Below the pieces are notes generated by a model that did no database searches, was not told the DNA's origin, and was given only the letters and a program-made list of their open reading frames with translations. Of a DNA stretch of 64,000 nucleotides, positions 10,638 to 56,659 are shown in pieces. The stretch covers positions 806,001 through 870,000 of the forward strand of contig NZ_BDCR01000003.1 of assembly GCF_001618385.1 (NCBI RefSeq), in the 5' to 3' direction. Within the stretch, counting starts at the first letter, position 1, and each line of letters begins with the position of its first letter. Origin of the DNA: Paludibacter jiangxiensis (GTDB lineage: Bacteria; Bacteroidota; Bacteroidia; Bacteroidales; Paludibacteraceae). A program made the translations under genes and the position numbers.

Positions 10638-11846
<1,209 letters not shown>

Positions 11847-16316: not shown

Positions 16317-17480
16317 TCATTTAAAAACCCTTGAGGCAAAGTCGTGCAATGATTTACGCCAAACCTGCCACTCGTGATCGCCGGGGAATGAGGCAAACTG
16401 CACCTTCAGTCCGCTATCCTGAAATTTCTTCACCTCCTTTTTTGTAAACTCAAAACGGGGATCCTGTTCGCCCACAGAGACGTAGAACAGTTTCAATTTT
16501 TGATTGAACGACGTTGAGTTGCTCAGCAAACCCGGAATTTCTTTATCCGCATCAAACACTTTCCCGTTCGGATTGGCGATGCCACCAAAGATTCCCGAAC
16601 TGAAAACGCCGACAGAAGAAAAACAATCGAGGCTGCCCAAGCCTGCATAAAAAGCCTGCCCGCCACCCATCGAAAGGCCGCATAACGCACGGTGGTTCGC
16701 ATCGGCAATCGTGCGGTACGTTTTATCGATAAAAGGAACAATATTTTTCGTCATTTCTTCTTTGAAAGCAGCCATCGCAGCATTGCTATACCCGCCTCCA
16801 CCTTTACCTGTAGTTACATTTCCGTTAGAAATCACTACAATCATCGGCTTGGCTTTGCCTTCAGCAATCAGGTTGTCGAGGATTATATCCGTTTTGCCCT
16901 GCACTGCCCAGCCGCGTTCGTCCTCTCCGCCACCATGCTGAATGTACACCACCGGATATTTTACCTTTGCATTAACATCGTATCCGGCAGGAGTATAGAC
17001 AAACAACCTGCGCCAGCTGTTGGTTACCTTCGAGAAATAGTATTTGGAACTCAGCGCTCCGTGCGGAACATCTTTCACTTCGTAAAAACCGGCACCTTTC
17101 TCAGGAATATCGATTGCGCTAGCCATGCGCCCCATGCCGTAAAACGTTTCGCTGGCAGGATCAACAACCTTCACGCCGTCGATCACCAACGAATAATAGT
17201 GAAAACCGGGAACCTGAGGCGCTGTGGTAACCGTCCAGAAACCCTGATCATCTTTGGTCATATCGTACAGTTTTCCCAAATCAATCTGCACCTTTTTAGC
17301 GTCGGGCGCTTTGATTTTGAAAACAACGCTCAGGTTGTCCAAAATACGCGGATATTCGACACCGGCAATATTGGTTGCAGCCGGTTTGCCGGGGTTCACC
17401 TCTTGCGCACTAACCTTGCCGATCAGTAAAATCATCAGAATGAAGAACAGCACCGCTGTTGTGATAAATTTCCGGATCAT
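16317..17480 (-). CDS. CE1-type esterase, array copy 1 (Asp-triad type)
   Basis: 387 residues: signal peptide (about 1-25), N-terminal E-set/CBM48-like domain (about 36-130) and esterase domain. The triad is canonical: Ser270 (GLSMG), Asp340 (GEQD) and His369 (GDHEW). It pairs most closely with the next gene (17490-18644); these two are the only copies of the eight with Asp in the acid position. Gaps of 25 bp to GH95 and 9 bp to the next esterase imply co-transcription. Expected substrates are feruloyl or acetyl esters on arabinoxylan. Confidence 0.91.
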   Translation of the reverse strand: MIRKFITTAVLFFILMILLIGKVSAQEVNPGKPAATNIAGVEYPRILDNLSVVFKIKAPDAKKVQIDLGKLYDMTKDDQGFWTVTTAPQVPGFHYYSLVIDGVKVVDPASETFYGMGRMASAIDIPEKGAGFYEVKDVPHGALSSKYYFSKVTNSWRRLFVYTPAGYDVNAKVKYPVVYIQHGGGEDERGWAVQGKTDIILDNLIAEGKAKPMIVVISNGNVTTGKGGGGYSNAAMAAFKEEMTKNIVPFIDKTYRTIADANHRALCGLSMGGGQAFYAGLGSLDCFSSVGVFSSGIFGGIANPNGKVFDADKEIPGLLSNSTSFNQKLKLFYVSVGEQDPRFEFTKKEVKKFQDSGLKVQFASFPGDHEWQVWRKSLHDFASRVFK

Positions 17481-17489
17481 AATCGTTTT

Positions 17490-18864
<1,375 letters not shown>

Positions 18865-20043
18865 TTATTTATCCTGAAATAGCAAGGGAGCAAAGCCATA
18901 GAGGCATTTACGCCAGGTCTGAAAGACATGCGCAGTACCCGGAGCTTCGTAATACACGTGCTTTATTCCGTTTTTTTGTAATTGTTCATGAATAGCACGA
19001 CCGGCATTCGGTCCCTCTGCCGAACCCTGACCGATATAGAATACCTTAACTTGCTTAGCAAAAGCATCCGGTTGGGTAAGCAAACCATTGTAAGCCTTCT
19101 CAATACCAGCAAAGCCAAAAGGAGCGGCACTAAAAACACCGATACTTGCAAATTTATCGAGATTAGTTTCGGAAATCTGATATGTTTGAGCACCGCCGAG
19201 AGAAAGACCTGCAATAGCCCGATGCTCACGATCGGTAAGCGTGCGGTATCTTGTATCGACCATCGGAATAATATCCTCTATCATAATCTTGGCAAAAGCA
19301 TTCCAGAAAGGATCCATTCCACCCAGACGTTGAGCTGCATTAGCAGATCCTGCAGGACTCTGAGCCCTGCGGGCCGCAAGATTAATTCCGGCAAGGCCTC
19401 CGTCTTCCATCACTAGAATCATCGGTTTTGCCTTACCCTGAGCAATGAGATTATCAAGAATAAAATTGGCTCTGCCCTGACTCTCCCACGCACGACGATC
19501 CTGATTCATACCATGCAACAGGTAGAGAACCGGATAACGCTGTTTGACATTCTGGTCATATCCCGGCGGAGTATAAATATAAGCGTGGCGCATTTCACCG
19601 GTCGATTTGGCTTTATACCAAACCGAGCGAACATCGCCATGCGGCACATCTTTTATGTCGTAAAAGTCAACGCCTTGCTCAGGCACTTCAATACAACTGT
19701 AAATATGGCCTGCATCATAGAATGTTTCGCTCGAAGGATCGTTGAGTTCAACACCGTCGATTTTGATCGTATAGCAAAGAAATCCGGGAGTCTGGGGCTC
19801 TGTTCTACCTGTCCAGAAACCATCTTCTCCTTTAGTCAGCGCCGTATTTCCAAGACTCACCACAACACTTGTCGCCTTTGGTGCATTAATACGAAAGAGC
19901 ACGCGGTGCTGTGCATCGACACGCGGATAATCGGCACCGACAACATTCGTTGATGCCGGTTTCGAATTATCAGCCTCCTGTCCGAAGCAGACAAAAGCAG
20001 TCTGCGACAGAACAGCCAAAAGGATCAGAATCGTTTTTTTCAT
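18865..20043 (-). CDS. CE1-type esterase, array copy 3 (Glu-triad type, mosaic N-terminus)
   Basis: 392 residues: signal peptide (about 1-21), E-set domain and esterase domain. Nucleophile Ser281 (GLSLG), probable acid Glu343 (GSAEGPN) and His372 (GTAHVF). From about residue 38 onward it is closest to array copy 4, whereas the signal peptide and the following residues resemble array copy 2. This suggests a recombination between neighbouring paralogues. It carries an Ala/Arg/Gln-rich insertion near residues 218-245, where copies 4 and 6 have Pro/Gly-rich loops. The gap to copy 4 is 8 bp. Confidence 0.9.
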   Translation of the reverse strand: MKKTILILLAVLSQTAFVCFGQEADNSKPASTNVVGADYPRVDAQHRVLFRINAPKATSVVVSLGNTALTKGEDGFWTGRTEPQTPGFLCYTIKIDGVELNDPSSETFYDAGHIYSCIEVPEQGVDFYDIKDVPHGDVRSVWYKAKSTGEMRHAYIYTPPGYDQNVKQRYPVLYLLHGMNQDRRAWESQGRANFILDNLIAQGKAKPMILVMEDGGLAGINLAARRAQSPAGSANAAQRLGGMDPFWNAFAKIMIEDIIPMVDTRYRTLTDREHRAIAGLSLGGAQTYQISETNLDKFASIGVFSAAPFGFAGIEKAYNGLLTQPDAFAKQVKVFYIGQGSAEGPNAGRAIHEQLQKNGIKHVYYEAPGTAHVFQTWRKCLYGFAPLLFQDK

Positions 20044-20051
20044 CGGATCAG

Positions 20052-24945
<4,894 letters not shown>

Positions 24946-30816: not shown

Positions 30817-31026
30817 TTTGATTATATATTATCAATTGACAAATAATCGCGTAATGCGATGCCAATCAGACCAATGCATTACTACAAACACATTGGCTCA
30901 GTTAAAATTAAATTCGATTAAGCGTATAAAAGAACGATACCAGCAACAACCAATAACCTGATTGCATCACAAGTCAATTCCCGGTACGATAAAGTGTATC
31001 AGCCGACATCAAAGAATGAATGCCAA

Positions 31027-31040
31027 CCAAACCGGTTTGG
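31027..31040. promoter_or_regulatory. 14-bp palindrome, candidate operator
   Basis: CCAAACCGGTTTGG is perfectly self-complementary and lies about 210 bp upstream of the start at 30816. It could be a regulator binding site or part of a terminator; no T run follows. Confidence 0.35.
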
Positions 31041-31108
31041 ATAATACGCTGTAAGTAGAAAGGTTTATATCTTCAAAAATCCCACGTGATCGGGGCAAAA
31101 ATCACTCT

Positions 31109-31147
31109 TCCGTTTAAGATCTGATAAACAGATAAACCTTAAACGGA
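31109..31147 (-). terminator. Hairpin downstream of GH43 gene (probable terminator)
   Basis: Arms TCCGTTTAAG (31109-31118) and CTTAAACGGA (31138-31147) pair perfectly, extended by ATCTG/CAGAT inside with a 4-nt bulge. On the minus strand an ATTTTT tract follows a few bases later. It lies 87 bp after the stop at 31234. Confidence 0.5.
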
Positions 31148-31233
31148 CAAATTGTCATCTTGTTCGTTAGATAGCTTTTCTTTCACTTGGTTTAAATGCG
31201 CTCCTGTTTTTTTATAACAAATCTTATCAACAA

Positions 31234-40235: not shown

Positions 40236-40554
40236 TGTTTTGATTGATTATTTATGGGTTTTGATATATATTGTCGCTTCTGTCTGATTGTGCGATTTTA
40301 CGGTTGGTTGAGGATTCCTATCTGCAGGAGTTTTTAAATGATTTACATTGCATCAAGATATTCAGAATTCTCTGCTCCGTTGTATCTTACTGCCAGAACT
40401 TCCAATTTCTCCCAAAAGCATCTTCCATTGAAAAATTTTGGACAAAGCCAACTAAGATAAAACAAACAGGCTATAATTGGCAATACTATTGAGATGCGAT
40501 AGCTCGTTATTGTTTCATCTTATGTTTGCTGTTTTATAAAACTAAAATCAAAAA
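40236..40554. other. Intergenic region without recognisable feature
   Basis: A 319-bp gap upstream of the NPCBM-GH27 gene. I see no supported gene, no strong hairpin and no well-placed Bacteroidetes promoter element. It presumably holds the promoter of the 40235 gene pair. Confidence 0.35.
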
Positions 40555-50833: not shown

Positions 50834-53281
50834 TTATTTAACCGTCACTTTTTTATCCTTGTAGACCACCTCTTTTTCTGTCTTATTGCCGTTAGCTGCA
50901 ATTTTCACTACGTGAAATTTCCGTTCTGCAAGCATACCGGGAAATGTTCCTTTGCGATCGGCAATAGTCAGGGTTTTCGATTTATCATCCCATTTGAAGT
51001 TAATGGTAGAGTAAATTCCTTTTTCGTAATTGTAGTTATCGTTTTCATCTTCGTACAAAGAGAACTCGCCGTTTGCTCCTTCATAAACGCGGATTTCAAG
51101 GTCATCCCATTTTTTCTCTGTAGCAAACTTTACTTTTGGGCCAAAAGGAATAATGCTTCCGGCTTTGACGAACAATGGCATTTTATCGATAGTGGTGGCC
51201 AGCGTAATTTCCTGTCCTCCGTTATATTTTGTATTCGTCCAGAAATCAAACCATGATGTCCCGGCCGGCAGGTATGCTTTTGCCGATTTCGACTGGGTAA
51301 AGTCCACTGCAACGGCTTTATTATCTTTCTTATCTCCTTTATTCCAACCCGAATTTTCGTCTGTTTTCACTATCGTTTCGGGTGTATATTGAGCATGCAC
51401 GACAGGTGCAACCAATATAGATTTCCCGAACATGTATTCATCATTTATGTTCCGGACATTATTATCCTGAAAATCCATTGCCAGCGCACGCATCATGGTC
51501 GACTGATCTTTCGTCACGCTCCATGCAGTAGAATAAATATAAGGCAGCATGGCATAGCGCAGGTTGATCGATTTCTCAATGGCATCGAAAATCGGTTCGC
51601 CCTTCTTTCCGAAATTGTATATTTCACGCGGCACATCAGTCCCGTGCGAACGCATCATCGGTGTGAATGTACCAAACTGAAGCCATCTTACATACAACTC
51701 CTGATACAAGGGGTTTTTAGCTCCGCTTCCATCTCCCCAACCCCGGTTATAGCTACCGGCAAAGAATCCGCCAATATCAGTGTTCCAATAAGGGATACCG
51801 CTCAATGAAAAATTAAGACCGGCAGGAATCTGGTTTCGGAGCGATTGCCAGGATGAGTTTACGTCTCCCGACCAGGTATTTGCTCCGTAGCGTTGTTGCC
51901 CGGCAAAAGCAGAACGGGTAAGAATAAATACACGCTTGTCGGAACTTACGCCTCGCTGATGTTCGGAAACTCCGCCAACCGCCATCAGCGGAAACGCGTT
52001 GCGCACTTTGCGAAAAGAGCCAAGATAAGTTTTCAAATCGAAATCGGAAGGTTTGAAATCCAAATGGTCAGGCTCGGTAGAGTCCATCCACCAACCGTCG
52101 ATGCCGAGAGAGAACAGTCCTTTATTGAGGTATCTCCAGTAAATATCACGAGCTTCCGGGTTGTAAGGATCATAGGGTTGTACGCCCGACGGATAATCAC
52201 GGTTGGGCGGCCATGCTTCCATACCCGACTGTGGCCATGTGCCGAAGTTCAACAACATCCCTTTCGGTTGCATCTCGCGGTATTGCTTTGTTTGCGGGCC
52301 GAACGACGACCAGATCGAAATAATCAGGTGTGCATTCATGTTGTGGATGTCGTCTACCATCTTTTTCGGTTCGGGGAATTCCGTATTCAGAAACTCCATG
52401 GCATTCCACAGGTAGTTATTGCCCCAGTATTGCCAGTCCTGAATAATACCATCGAGCGGCACTCCAAGCTCTCTGTACTTTTTCACAACACCCACCAGTT
52501 CGTTCTGACTTTTATATCGTTCTTTGCTCTGCCAAAAACCAAACGTCCACAATGGAAACATAGGAGCCTGGCCTGTCAGGTCGCGCATGCAGGCCACCGA
52601 TCCGTCGAGACTTCCGCCAACCATAAAATAATAGTCGATGCCATCGCCTACATCCGACTTAAAGAGTGTAGTTTCCGGCTTATCTTCAAAAATGGTGGGA
52701 GAATAGTTATCCCAGAACAGGCCGTATCCTTTGGTTGAGACAAAAAACGGCACATAATCGTCCGTATTGCCCTGCACCATGTGGAGCGTCACATTGCGTT
52801 GCGACATTTTACCACCCTGCTGCTGGCCCAGGCCATAGATTGCTTCGTCTTTATCGAGTGTAAATTCTTGCCCCACGCTATATGTACTGGTTCCGGCATC
52901 GTTGAAAGGAGTAAACGATGCGCCCTGAGCCTTCTCATTCAGCAATGCATTGCCGCGAACATCCTGAAACGACACGGCTCCGTCTTTCAGATTCAGCGTC
53001 ACAAGCATTTTGCTGCTTTTCAACAAAAGCCGATCACCCTGTTGCGCTACGGAAAATTTTGTTTTTTCAGGGGTCTTTGTCACCGAAAGGCTTTGCTTGT
53101 TGAAATCGCTTCCGGCAGGCCATTTCTGTATTCGCACGATGGAGGGAGAGTAAAACCGGACCTCAACTCCGGTAGAATTAATGACGGCTTTTGCACCCCA
53201 GTCGGTTTTTTGGAAGATTTGAGCTTGGGAACTCATTACCGACACCATGACTAAGCATAGCAGAGAGAAAATACACTTCAT
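50834..53281 (-). CDS. GH31 alpha-xylosidase/alpha-glucosidase-like enzyme (no PA14)
   Basis: 815 residues: signal peptide (1-20), N-terminal beta-sandwich, TIM barrel, two C-terminal beta domains. Nucleophile Asp400 (DGWWMDSTEPD) and acid/base Asp473 (NTWSGDVNSS). The barrel sequence DWQYWGNN and the WMDSTEP pattern resemble the alpha-xylosidase branch of GH31. It lacks the PA14 insertion present in the other GH31 at 56802. First gene of the operon GH31-GH43-GH115-GH29 and divergent from the regulator, the most likely direct target of it. Confidence 0.92.
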   Translation of the reverse strand: MKCIFSLLCLVMVSVMSSQAQIFQKTDWGAKAVINSTGVEVRFYSPSIVRIQKWPAGSDFNKQSLSVTKTPEKTKFSVAQQGDRLLLKSSKMLVTLNLKDGAVSFQDVRGNALLNEKAQGASFTPFNDAGTSTYSVGQEFTLDKDEAIYGLGQQQGGKMSQRNVTLHMVQGNTDDYVPFFVSTKGYGLFWDNYSPTIFEDKPETTLFKSDVGDGIDYYFMVGGSLDGSVACMRDLTGQAPMFPLWTFGFWQSKERYKSQNELVGVVKKYRELGVPLDGIIQDWQYWGNNYLWNAMEFLNTEFPEPKKMVDDIHNMNAHLIISIWSSFGPQTKQYREMQPKGMLLNFGTWPQSGMEAWPPNRDYPSGVQPYDPYNPEARDIYWRYLNKGLFSLGIDGWWMDSTEPDHLDFKPSDFDLKTYLGSFRKVRNAFPLMAVGGVSEHQRGVSSDKRVFILTRSAFAGQQRYGANTWSGDVNSSWQSLRNQIPAGLNFSLSGIPYWNTDIGGFFAGSYNRGWGDGSGAKNPLYQELYVRWLQFGTFTPMMRSHGTDVPREIYNFGKKGEPIFDAIEKSINLRYAMLPYIYSTAWSVTKDQSTMMRALAMDFQDNNVRNINDEYMFGKSILVAPVVHAQYTPETIVKTDENSGWNKGDKKDNKAVAVDFTQSKSAKAYLPAGTSWFDFWTNTKYNGGQEITLATTIDKMPLFVKAGSIIPFGPKVKFATEKKWDDLEIRVYEGANGEFSLYEDENDNYNYEKGIYSTINFKWDDKSKTLTIADRKGTFPGMLAERKFHVVKIAANGNKTEKEVVYKDKKVTVK

Positions 53282-53389
53282 GACGTTTTTAGATTTGAGT
53301 TAATAATCGATATAAAGCTTTTTATTGTTTGCGATATCCAAAACATAAACCGGACGCTTTTCATGTTTTCCGCTCTATGTTTCACGTCA

Positions 53390-53397
53390 CAAATGTA
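53390..53397 (-). promoter_or_regulatory. Putative -7 element of the GH31 operon
   Basis: Minus-strand TACATTTG matches TAnnTTTG. At the consensus distance upstream the sequence is AAGT, a poor -33, as expected for an activator-dependent promoter. Predicted leader is about 100 nt. Confidence 0.4.
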
Positions 53398-53427
53398 CAT
53401 TTTAGTTGCGACGCCCACTTGTACTTA

Positions 53428-53456
53428 TGTTACAGAAAAGTGGTGAATTTGTTACA
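53428..53456. promoter_or_regulatory. Direct repeats TGTTACA, 22-bp period, candidate AraC-type activator site
   Basis: TGTTACA occurs at 53428-53434 and 53450-53456, start-to-start distance 22 bp, about two helical turns, immediately upstream of the minus-strand promoter. Paired direct repeats at this spacing and place are typical for AraC-family activators. The divergent gene encodes an AraC-type DNA-binding domain. Confidence 0.4.
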
Positions 53457-53537
53457 CTTCTTCAATTTCAGACCATTAACACGCATTTATTGCACATTTT
53501 CAGCCTTTGGCAACACCTAAAAACAGCAGTTCATCGC

Positions 53538-53568
53538 CTTGAATTATTCCAATATATCCGTACCTTTG
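53538..53568 (+). promoter_or_regulatory. Putative promoter of the regulator gene
   Basis: CTTG (53538-53541) and TACCTTTG (53561-53568) are separated by 19 bp and match the Bacteroidetes -33/-7 pattern TTTG-N19-TAnnTTTG with one mismatch. Transcription would start near 53575. Confidence 0.55.
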
Positions 53569-53779
53569 AAAGCCTCAAATACGAGTCGGATGGCTTCTTC
53601 TGTCTGGTCCATTTCATCCACGTTATCGTAGCATCAGGAATAGCATTCCAATTTTTGGTCACTATGAAACGAGCATGTTTATTGAGAAACCAAACACGAA
53701 TGAACAACATCATGCGGGTTAGCTTCGCTTCAATTCGCAAGCACAATTCCATCTGACCTAAAAAAACAATTTTGTACGG

Positions 53780-56659
53780 ATGAAATACAAGCTTTTGCTA
53801 CCTCTGCTCTTATTCTGTGTGCTGGCCAAAGTACAGGCACAGGGAGCAAGACTGTTTACTTCCGCTGATGGCCTGCCGGGCAGTCAGTTCATCTTCATGA
53901 ATCAGGATAGCAAAGGCAATATATGGATTTGCAACTATGGAGGTTTAGCCCGTTTTGACGGATTCGGCCTGACAGCCTTTTATGAAGCAAGAGGCCAAAA
54001 CAGATTGCGAAGCAACAGCGTCTACCGCTTAACCACCGATCCGCTGGGACAATATTGGGTTGGAACCACTCGCGGCTTACAGCTGTTTCATCCCGAAAAA
54101 GAGACCTTTGAGCACATTCGTCTGGAAAAAGGCGAAGATGATAATACCTCCCGAAAAGGGAAAGCAATCACTATTTCCGACATCATCCTTTTGCCTGGTG
54201 GCAAGCAATTGCTGCTCGGCAGCGGAATAGACGGCTTCTACATTATCGACATACGAACCCATAAAGTGGCAGAGAAAGCCACCGCCGCTCTCAGACAAGC
54301 TCTGAAAAATATCGTACCAAGACGCATCTACATCGATTCCAAATCGCGTCTCTGGGTCGTTGGCTCCAATCTGGAGGTGATTGACCTGAAGAGTTTTCGC
54401 CCGTTACCAATCAACTCCAAAGGATTCGGCATTCAATCGTCCGACATGGAAATCACCGATTTCCTCGAAGACAGAGTGACTCATACACTCCTGATATGCG
54501 ATAAATGGAATGGGGTTTTGGTCTTCGACGAAGGCAAACGTCAATTGAGAAAATTAACATCGCAACCTACCAAATTCACGAGTGCTCAATGCCTGATACA
54601 ACGCAGGGATGGTACGCTGCTGGTTGGATGCGAAAGCAATGGCATCGGCAAAATAGAGCTTGCCCAAAATACCATTACCGACTACAAAATACAAGATACG
54701 CCGCTCGATCTGGCATATTGCAAAATCCACAGCATGATTGAAGATCGCTGGGGAAATCTTTACATTGGCATCTATCAAAAAGGCATGCTGGTAGTGCCAT
54801 CGGCATCGGGCAATTTCAATTTTCAGCAAATTACGGGCACATCCTCCATCCCTATTCAATCGGCGATCACCTCTTTTAACCATGCCAATAACGGAAACAT
54901 CATGGTCTGCACCGACGGGAATGGCGTTTTCTACGGTAAAAGCTACGATAATCTTCAGCAACTTCCCCTGCCCTCTTTCTGCAACAACGCCATACAACAT
55001 ATGGTTACCGACCCTACAGGAAAAATATGGATAGCCACCTATGGAAGCGGGCTCTATTGCTACGATCGCGGGGCCGTAAAAAAGATTCCCGACACAAAAG
55101 ACATTATCAACAAAAACAGCTGCTATCTGGAATGCGACCCGGCACGCAAAGTGTTGTACATCGCCAACATCGGCACGGGGCTTAACCGCATCGACCTTCG
55201 TTCGGGTGAAATGAGCCACATCGCAATTGCCAGTCCCTGGGTATTTGCACTGAAGCTCGATTCAAAAGGGCGCTTATGGATAGGAAGCTCCAACTGCGAC
55301 TGCTACGATCCGAAGACGAATCGTCTGTACAACTACAGACTGGAGACAATCGACAACAGTTCGGTACGCGCCTTTCTTGAAAGCAACGGATTAATATATA
55401 TCGGCACAAACAACGGTCTGTTTGTGTACAATGACAAAAATAATTCATGCCGGCACTATTCGTTAGACTCCGACAACAAAGCTATTTCGGTGCTTGCACT
55501 GGCTGCAGGCAACGACAATGCTATCTGGATGAGCACCAACAAGGGAATCGTACGGTTTGACCCCAAAAGTGGCAGCATGCGCCTGTTCGCTTCATACGAC
55601 ATCCGGAAAATAGGAGATTTTCACAGCAACGCCGTATATTGCTACGCCAACGGAACAATCGCATTCGGAGGCGATAACGGAATTATTACCTTCAACCCGG
55701 TTTCAATCATCAACAGCAAAACAGAATGGAATCCGATACACTTCAGTTCGCTCAATGTAAACGGGAAACCGATAACCTACGACTTCAATGCCGGGCACAA
55801 CTTTCTTGATGCGGCAATAGGATATGCAACCCGCATCACCCTCCCCTATAATCAGAACTCCTTTTCCATTCGCTTTACCACCTCCAACTATGCAGCGTCC
55901 TCTCAACTTCGCTACGTGTATCAGTTAAAAGGTTACGAATCCGTGTGGCACTCCACCACTGCCGACAATCCGCTGGCAGTGTACAACCAGCTGCCTCCGG
56001 GGCACTATACGCTCCGCGTGCAAAGCATCAGCGAAGGGAAAAACCTGCAAACCACCGAAGCCTCTATCGATGTGATCATCAACGCTCCCTGGTATTGGTC
56101 GTGGTGGAGCAAACTGTGTTATTTTATCATTCTCCTTTCGCTCGTATACAGCCAATACCGAACCTATCAAACACGCCAGCGGAGCAAAAAACGCTTACGT
56201 ACCGTTATCGGCGAAATGCTTCGTATCAAAGAGAACTACCTCAACGTAATACAAACGCAGCAGGTTGACCCTTCCAGGTCCGTCGATTCAGGAGACGACA
56301 AATGGAAAAAGAGAGTGATGGATGCTATTTCGAGCCACATCTCCGATGCGGATTTCGGGGTAGAAGAACTAAGTCATGAAGTCGCTTTGAGCCGCGTTCA
56401 CCTCTACCGGCGTACCAAGGAGCTATTCGGAAGTTCGCCCAACGACCTTATAAAGTCGGTGCGCATGAAAAAAGCGGGACTGATGCTTATTCAGGACAAA
56501 ACATCCATTTCGGAGGTTGCCTACGAGGTGGGCTTCTCAGAACCTTCCTATTTTTCAAAATCGTTTAAGAGCTATTTCAACATGTCGCCCAAGGACTTTG
56601 TGGCCCGCTATCGCGACAATGCCAATGACGAAATCGTGCAACAACTGTTTGAGCTATAG
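53780..56659 (+). CDS. Membrane-bound sensor/AraC-type regulator (HTCS-like, without kinase and receiver)
   Basis: 959 residues: signal peptide (1-20), two-component-regulator propeller repeats (about 24-690; DGLPGSQF and repeated D.KGRLWIG motifs), Y_Y_Y domain (about 700-768), one membrane helix (about 777-793), a basic, possibly coiled-coil linker of about 47 residues, then an AraC-type helix-turn-helix (about 840-945). Hybrid two-component regulators of Bacteroidota PULs have the same ends but carry HisKA, HATPase and receiver domains (about 400-500 residues) between them. Here nothing remains of these. It would sense an oligosaccharide in the periplasm and bind DNA directly from the membrane. 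Only plus-strand gene in the window; divergent from the GH31 operon. The frame is intact, so this is not a fresh deletion. Confidence 0.93.
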   Translation: MKYKLLLPLLLFCVLAKVQAQGARLFTSADGLPGSQFIFMNQDSKGNIWICNYGGLARFDGFGLTAFYEARGQNRLRSNSVYRLTTDPLGQYWVGTTRGLQLFHPEKETFEHIRLEKGEDDNTSRKGKAITISDIILLPGGKQLLLGSGIDGFYIIDIRTHKVAEKATAALRQALKNIVPRRIYIDSKSRLWVVGSNLEVIDLKSFRPLPINSKGFGIQSSDMEITDFLEDRVTHTLLICDKWNGVLVFDEGKRQLRKLTSQPTKFTSAQCLIQRRDGTLLVGCESNGIGKIELAQNTITDYKIQDTPLDLAYCKIHSMIEDRWGNLYIGIYQKGMLVVPSASGNFNFQQITGTSSIPIQSAITSFNHANNGNIMVCTDGNGVFYGKSYDNLQQLPLPSFCNNAIQHMVTDPTGKIWIATYGSGLYCYDRGAVKKIPDTKDIINKNSCYLECDPARKVLYIANIGTGLNRIDLRSGEMSHIAIASPWVFALKLDSKGRLWIGSSNCDCYDPKTNRLYNYRLETIDNSSVRAFLESNGLIYIGTNNGLFVYNDKNNSCRHYSLDSDNKAISVLALAAGNDNAIWMSTNKGIVRFDPKSGSMRLFASYDIRKIGDFHSNAVYCYANGTIAFGGDNGIITFNPVSIINSKTEWNPIHFSSLNVNGKPITYDFNAGHNFLDAAIGYATRITLPYNQNSFSIRFTTSNYAASSQLRYVYQLKGYESVWHSTTADNPLAVYNQLPPGHYTLRVQSISEGKNLQTTEASIDVIINAPWYWSWWSKLCYFIILLSLVYSQYRTYQTRQRSKKRLRTVIGEMLRIKENYLNVIQTQQVDPSRSVDSGDDKWKKRVMDAISSHISDADFGVEELSHEVALSRVHLYRRTKELFGSSPNDLIKSVRMKKAGLMLIQDKTSISEVAYEVGFSEPSYFSKSFKSYFNMSPKDFVARYRDNANDEIVQQLFEL

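Follow-up and report, generated by a model that had tools for sequence, protein, structure and literature searches.

In Bacteroides, hybrid two-component systems (HTCSs) form one of the major classes of glycan regulators (PMC11253607). How the binding of a ligand reaches the tethered DNA-binding domain across the membrane is not fully settled for HTCSs, and natural forms without the kinase and receiver isolate this first signaling step. An aspartate (D) in helix 6 and a lysine (K) in recognition helix 8 of the HTCS DNA-binding domain have been proposed to contact the receiver and thereby hold the domain off, and their reported conservation is 95% and 96%, respectively (PMC11253607). The operators of HTCSs are predicted to be direct repeats approximately 21 bp apart, and this has been taken to imply dimers (PMC3878776). 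The DNA-binding domain of another glycan regulator, SusR, is described as not significantly similar to that of any other factor, and its predicted sites lie 67 or 77 bp apart (PMC3878776). Y_Y_Y domains have also been reported in 7.7% of 50,302 transmembrane transcription regulators, or TTRs (PMC10269533).

In this report, we analyze a gene from Paludibacter jiangxiensis that encodes an HTCS-like sensor joined to an AraC-type DNA-binding domain. The window is the whole stretch of DNA that was analyzed, at its full length of 64,000 nucleotides. The coordinates of the features are collected in Table 1.

Table 1. Features of the regulator, its upstream region, and the other sensors of the genome
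Feature	Coordinates	Strand	Basis or remark
Kinase-less membrane regulator, 959 aa	53780..56659	+	ORF with ATG start, Pfam, same-length orthologs, dN/dS 0.07-0.10
Probable signal peptide, ~aa 1-21	53780..53842	+	hydrophobic stretch aa 4-23
Periplasmic two-component-regulator propeller region	53843..55879	+	Reg_prop 2.5e-25; PDB 4a2l, 3v9f
Y_Y_Y domain, aa 703-767	55886..56080	+	Pfam 2.1e-15
Predicted single membrane helix, ~aa 773-791	56096..56152	+	weak hydropathy 1.12; HTCS-like position
Cytoplasmic linker, ~49 aa	56153..56299	+	stands where full HTCSs have kinase and receiver
AraC-type HTH_18 DNA-binding domain, aa 864-942	56369..56605	+	Pfam 3.8e-20
Divergent intergenic region, regulator / GH31 gene 50834-53281	53282..53779	.	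conserved in three species
Candidate operator, TGTTACA direct repeat, 22-bp period	53428..53456	+	a lead only
Full HTCS of the island (L004 4260-8153)	G000:C3:904259-908152 = window coordinates 98259-102152	minus-strand run	~42 kb on from the regulator
Three propeller/Y_Y_Y membrane proteins without kinase, 948-965 aa	L001 2816-5713, L002 3111-5957, L003 3113-6001		genome of the regulator

Domain Organization of the Regulator

The original prediction held that the protein combines a propeller/Y_Y_Y sensor, a single membrane helix, and an AraC domain, with neither a kinase nor a receiver and with some 47 residues between the membrane and the DNA-binding domain. The sensor, the helix, and the AraC domain were all located by Pfam searches and hydropathy, although the helix is weak. 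The two-part HTH of the AraC/XylS family is present as HTH_18 together with HTH_AraC, which was matched at 1.6e-14 (Pfam, E ≤ 1; aa 904-940, the better of two stretches). The domain search proposed with the prediction found no HisKA, HATPase_c, or Response_reg in the 959-aa regulator, even at E ≤ 1. As a control, L004, one of the full HTCSs encoded in this genome, was searched with Pfam and gave Response_reg (5.7e-25), HATPase_c (2.4e-22), and HisKA (2.2e-10). When compared with the PDB, the sensor matched the solved two-component sensors 4a2l (2.4e-52), 3v9f (2.1e-38), and 3ott (1.9e-23), and the HTH matched an HTCS structure, 12aw (4.5e-19). The protein of structure 4a2l is presumably BT4663.

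The mean hydropathy of the membrane helix was determined to be 1.12 over 19 residues (aa 773-791), which is below the cutoff of 1.4. The helix nevertheless falls at the position of the membrane helix in HTCS relatives and, because it missed the cutoff, its assignment rests on this position more than on hydropathy. A single-sequence AlphaFold model of aa 763-959 contains a low-confidence helix at aa 775-796, but with a mean pLDDT of 56 this fragment model is too poor to support any argument. The distance from the membrane helix to the start of the HTH model (aa 841) is 49 aa, close to the predicted value, whereas the same distance is 424-450 aa in the four full HTCSs of the genome. The regulator is probably a membrane-anchored one-component AraC-type protein, and the kinase and receiver are absent from it. 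Since both domains were looked for and are absent, the protein falls outside the HTCS class by definition, and their absence supports the phosphorylation-free, one-component reading that had been put forward.

Occurrence of the Kinase-Less Layout

Relatives with the same layout were surveyed using a profile composed of Y_Y_Y, membrane, linker, and HTH segments. A match was considered to be in one piece when it started at profile position 33 or earlier and ended at position 245 or later. At least 31 such matches were found in 29 of 250 genomes from the same family (up to 10 candidates scored per genome) and at least 35 in 22 of 393 genomes from the same order (up to 6 candidates scored per genome), with the genome of the regulator included in both sets. 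Of the 66 survey rows, eight contain a single stop within the match, and one comes from the contig edge of a contaminated MAG. A broader profile gave eight matches in 6 of 295 genomes from the class, of which only G700 lies outside the order, and three matches in 3 of 296 genomes from the phylum, again with the regulator's own genome included. The layout recurs across the order and is not unique.

A full-length set of 41 kinase-less proteins was assembled from the regulator, six first-round proteins, and 34 proteins selected from the family and order surveys. None of the 41 matched the kinase or receiver models of this analysis. Pfam identified Reg_prop, HTH_18, and HTH_AraC in all 41 proteins and Y_Y_Y in 39; the 25 of 32 Pfam families listed for them include neither a kinase nor a receiver family. 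The hydropathy of the most hydrophobic window beside Y_Y_Y ranges from 1.12 to 2.98; the lowest values belong to the regulator and its two orthologs (1.12-1.16), followed by 1.60. The distance from this window to the HTH is 19-68 aa.

Among 20 regions taken as candidate kinase-less genes, five proved to be kinase-less, including the ortholog from G001. Another 14 were rejected, as they have a kinase and receiver behind a shorter sensor. A protein of 962 aa (L055 623-3511, G055:C92) has a receiver and an AraC HTH with no kinase called by the model, and is perhaps another partial loss. Two kinase-less paralogs are found approximately 4.5 kb apart in one genome (L121 401-3145 and 7624-10326, G139:C8), and these sit within a family clade of nine kinase-less proteins.

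Relationship to Full HTCSs

Beyond the orthologs, the best match for both halves of the regulator among 61 genomes searched is the same genus-level HTCS. The sequence identity is 27-28% over the whole length of the sensor (~750 aa) and 39-45% for the HTH. Trees were calculated for the sensor (75 proteins: 41 kinase-less, 31 HTCS, and 3 LuxR-like) and for the HTH (71 proteins). Both are quick calculations in which long branches are numerous; the program warned that long branches meet, and the roots were not inferred. The clade that contains the regulator comprises 12 HTCSs and 4 kinase-less proteins in the sensor tree (SH-aLRT 98) and 11 HTCSs and 4 kinase-less proteins in the HTH tree (support 96). 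The second clade is the first minus L149, whose HTH is lost at the end of a contig. The internal arrangement differs between the trees: measured by path length, the HTCS closest to the regulator in the sensor tree is L166, which belongs to another family, whereas in the HTH tree it is the genus-level HTCS. The kinase-less pair L039 and L130 falls inside another HTCS clade in each tree (support 100 and 86).

Along the sensor tree, the kinase/kinase-less label switches 12 times, with at least five switches forced by supported branches; along the HTH tree, it switches 11 times, with at least two forced. The sensor data reject an arrangement in which all 41 kinase-less proteins form one clade, with a log-likelihood that is lower by 455 and a p-AU of 5.6e-5. 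The trees indicate that the kinase-less layout arose more than once. Repeated loss of the kinase and receiver is the likeliest course of events, and we infer loss over gain because many regains of a kinase and receiver at one place would be implausible.

By eye, the linker of the regulator seemed to retain a good relic of receiver helix alpha-5, but this was set aside after comparison with 300 shuffles, in which the best score had a p value of 0.27 and the mean score one of 0.01. For the juxtamembrane helix, as the alternative origin of the linker, the corresponding values were 0.30 and 0.26. The similarity of this linker to the receiver tail is only suggestive. Seven kinase-less proteins were tested in this manner. 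The linkers of L130 and L056 gave a p value of 0.003 for the best score against the receiver tail, with means above 0.05, and that of L138 gave 0.017; for L139, it was the juxtamembrane helix that the linker matched (p = 0.007). The deletion junctions of the seven proteins, as far as they can be read from these scores, give no single picture.

Proposed Receiver-Contact Residues of the HTH

The columns for D and K were located here from their spacing of 39 positions, and the kinase-less proteins were compared with 30 HTCSs chosen from matches to the HTH of the regulator. D is kept in 26/30 HTCSs versus 16/41 kinase-less proteins, K in 30/30 versus 25/41, and the two together in 26/30 versus 11/41; these counts are not independent, because the proteins are related and nine of the 41 are from one clade. 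When D was allowed one column to either side, the gap was smaller (29/30 versus 25/41). Nineteen columns are conserved in at least 25 of the 30 HTCSs and, among these, D is the least kept in the kinase-less proteins and K the fifth least. K is also the least kept of the seven columns that are invariant in the 30 HTCSs. Four other conserved columns are lost about equally, being kept in 20 to 26 of the 41. Where K is missing, it is replaced by R in 15 of 16 kinase-less proteins. A loose version of the motif on the receiver side was detected in just 22 of the 30 HTCSs. The regulator itself has kept D and has the mild change of K to R, and the ortholog from G003 has N at the D column.

The two proposed receiver-contact residues are less conserved in the kinase-less proteins, and these natural forms allow the lock that the receiver is proposed to exert (the S/CHIP-DK contacts) to be tested from its DNA-binding side. 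We consider it fairly likely that in several lineages of the Bacteroidales full HTCSs have repeatedly shed the kinase and receiver to become phosphorylation-free one-component regulators, and that freedom from the receiver has relaxed the receiver-contact residues of the DNA-binding domain.

The Xylan Island and Its Sensors

The rest of the window was tiled with 36 ORFs of at least 100 aa, of which three are without any family (Pfam, E ≤ 1e-4). The glycoside hydrolases include two GH10, many GH43, two GH31, GH115, an alpha-L-arabinofuranosidase, GH127, GH95, alpha-galactosidases, a fucosidase, and others, and the window also encodes esterases and one sugar transporter (Pfam, E ≤ 1e-4). The esterases of PF00756 represent a notable expansion for one xylan locus, with eight genes, seven of them in tandem, at positions 16317-24936 and 10638-11837 of the window. 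The plus strand of the tiling holds the regulator and one 109-aa ORF without a family, and nothing else.

The regulator had been described as the only one in a very large locus. This description agrees with the window, in which Pfam (E ≤ 1e-4) called none of the 36 remaining tiled ORFs (100 aa or longer) a regulator, but it does not extend to the island. The minus-strand run of CAZyme genes continues beyond the window, via L059 and L060, to a SusD (PF07980, 1.2e-22) and a SusC-type TonB receptor, and at this end is a full HTCS of 1297 aa with HisKA, HATPase_c, Response_reg, and HTH_18 (Pfam). The xylan island has two sensors of one type, one with a kinase and one without. There are eight Y_Y_Y matches in the genome, which comprise four full HTCSs, the regulator, and three other kinase-less proteins (L001, L002, and L003). 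These three resemble the regulator in having Y_Y_Y and a predicted membrane helix and in giving no match to the kinase and receiver models of this analysis. Their C-terminus differs from the AraC HTH of the regulator and is LuxR-like by eye only; in L001, the one of the three that was scanned, Pfam called no HTH at 1e-4.

Within the genome, both halves of the regulator have as their best match a full HTCS, the paralog at G000:C4:134361, and a full HTCS heads the same island. The regulator might for these reasons work in trans, by pairing with the HTCS at the SusC/SusD end or with the C4 paralog and then tuning or blocking its partner. We regard this arrangement as unlikely. The sensor is only 28% identical to that of the HTCS paralog, so that heterodimers would not be expected to form readily, and a SusC-like gene is found near at least two of six other kinase-less genes (L174 and L178, from protein starts), as it often is for HTCS genes.

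Orthologs and Selection

The gene for the regulator is present in three of eight genomes of the genus (P. jiangxiensis, G001, and G003), and one of the five genomes without it is 78% complete. The orthologs from G001 and G003 (JAUZOL010000107) are both 959 aa in length and 95-96% identical to the regulator. As in P. jiangxiensis, they are flanked by GH31-like genes, judging from protein starts and gene order. An ortholog with 95% identity is represented by a fragment at a contig edge (L063 2-730, JAUZOF010000145), apparently from G546:C52, and is likely a binning error; G546 is a MAG assigned to another family, with 8% contamination.

The dN/dS values for the whole gene were determined to be 0.090, 0.100, and 0.073 for the own-G001, own-G003, and G001-G003 pairs, respectively. 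The corresponding values were 0.020, 0.053, and 0.026 for the HTH, and 0.112, 0.139, and 0.072 for the membrane helix plus linker. These values indicate that the gene is under purifying selection as a kinase-less regulator. The HTCS receiver has been proposed to restrain the DNA-binding domain (PMC11253607), and it is missing from the regulator. If nothing restrains the HTH, the protein could bind DNA constitutively and the sensor would be irrelevant. This is very unlikely, given that the sensor is also under purifying selection, with dN/dS of 0.08-0.10 between the orthologs. Slightly less credible still is a model in which sensing leads to a cleavage that frees the HTH from the membrane to work as a soluble factor. 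The linker of ~49 aa is long enough for cleavage, and the membrane helix plus linker is more variable than the sensor (dN of 0.034-0.040 versus 0.020-0.025 between the orthologs), but Pfam found no protease family among the other ORFs of the window. That the gene is a decayed or misassembled HTCS, as might be suspected of a gene that encodes no kinase when most of its relatives do, is barely credible, because the frame is open and copies of the same length, with dN/dS near 0.1, are found in the assemblies of two congeneric genomes. A sequencing deletion or assembly error and sister relatives that are all full HTCSs were the two outcomes named as speaking against the original prediction. Purifying selection and the two other assemblies run counter to the first, and the second is contradicted by the 959-aa kinase-less layout that both congeneric genomes share.

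The Divergent Intergenic Region

The region between the regulator and the divergent GH31 gene is conserved throughout, with a mean column identity of 93% over three species, and the TGTTACA repeat with its 22-bp period is present in all three. There is one exact copy of TGTTACA-N15-TGTTACA in the genome and three more with one mismatch. The window has no excess of this pattern at up to three mismatches (8 found versus 5.6 expected). The pattern was picked after inspection of the region, and the chance of such a repeat at spacings of 20-22 in a region of like make-up is 0.13. Of 13 further intergenic stretches that were listed, 4 also contain a repeat of 7 or 8 bases at such spacings. Since the region is 93% conserved throughout and the chance is 13%, the repeat is kept only as a lead, as a candidate operator. 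Two other intergenic regions, at positions 30817-31233 and 40236-40554 of the window, contain eight-base direct repeats spaced at 22 and 21 bp, respectively, which may serve such a regulator as operators or may have arisen by chance.

Proposed Mechanism

We consider it quite likely that the regulator is a one-component, membrane-anchored AraC-type protein that was derived from a full HTCS by losing the kinase and receiver, and that the sensor signals to the HTH via the membrane. In the proposed mechanism, a glycan fragment, which the neighboring genes suggest is probably derived from xylan, would bind to the sensor dimer (propeller/Y_Y_Y) in the periplasm. The resulting change in this dimer would travel via the membrane helices and the short linker, the two AraC domains would take up the spacing for a direct-repeat operator, and the nearby xylan genes would be switched on. 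We infer the ligand, the dimerization, the direction of control, and the target promoters, together with dimer rearrangement as the path of the signal. Binding of DNA from the membrane is known for CadC (PMC7888679). If the regulator responds to glycans, a sensor dimer can drive an AraC domain directly and, if the mechanism is true, the phosphorelay is dispensable for the HTCS sensor class. Annotation from the sensor domain alone would mislabel such genes as kinases.

Comparison with Known Systems

The propeller-type HTCSs of the Bacteroidetes, such as BT4663 and the paralog at G000:C4:134361, have the sensor, Y_Y_Y domain, and AraC HTH in common with the regulator, whose weak, predicted membrane helix is at the position of theirs. 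The regulator is without the HisKA, HATPase_c, and receiver domains of these proteins, yet both of its halves are found in one HTCS clade. ToxR is a membrane one-component regulator, and proteins of the CadC/ToxR type bind DNA from the membrane without phosphorylation, as is proposed here for the regulator. The sensor and the ancestry of the CadC/ToxR-type proteins are different, however, and their DNA-binding fold differs from the AraC type. The SusR-like regulators also are membrane proteins with a periplasmic sensor and a cytoplasmic DNA-binding domain that control glycan genes (PMC3878776), but the C-terminus of the regulator is an AraC HTH (Pfam), unlike the SusR domain as described (PMC3878776).

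The TTRs, like the regulator with its weak, predicted helix, combine a DNA-binding domain and a membrane helix in one protein. The main account of the TTR survey does not appear to single out kinase-less Y_Y_Y-AraC proteins or descent from HTCSs, and its supplements may list such proteins (PMC10269533). A literature search, with most subscription journals outside its scope, found no recognized account of propeller/Y_Y_Y-AraC proteins without a kinase, and neither a repeated origin of HTCS-derived kinase-less AraC regulators nor a loss of the lock residues. The TTR class is already known, and the recurrent HTCS-derived kinase-less form is a new variant.
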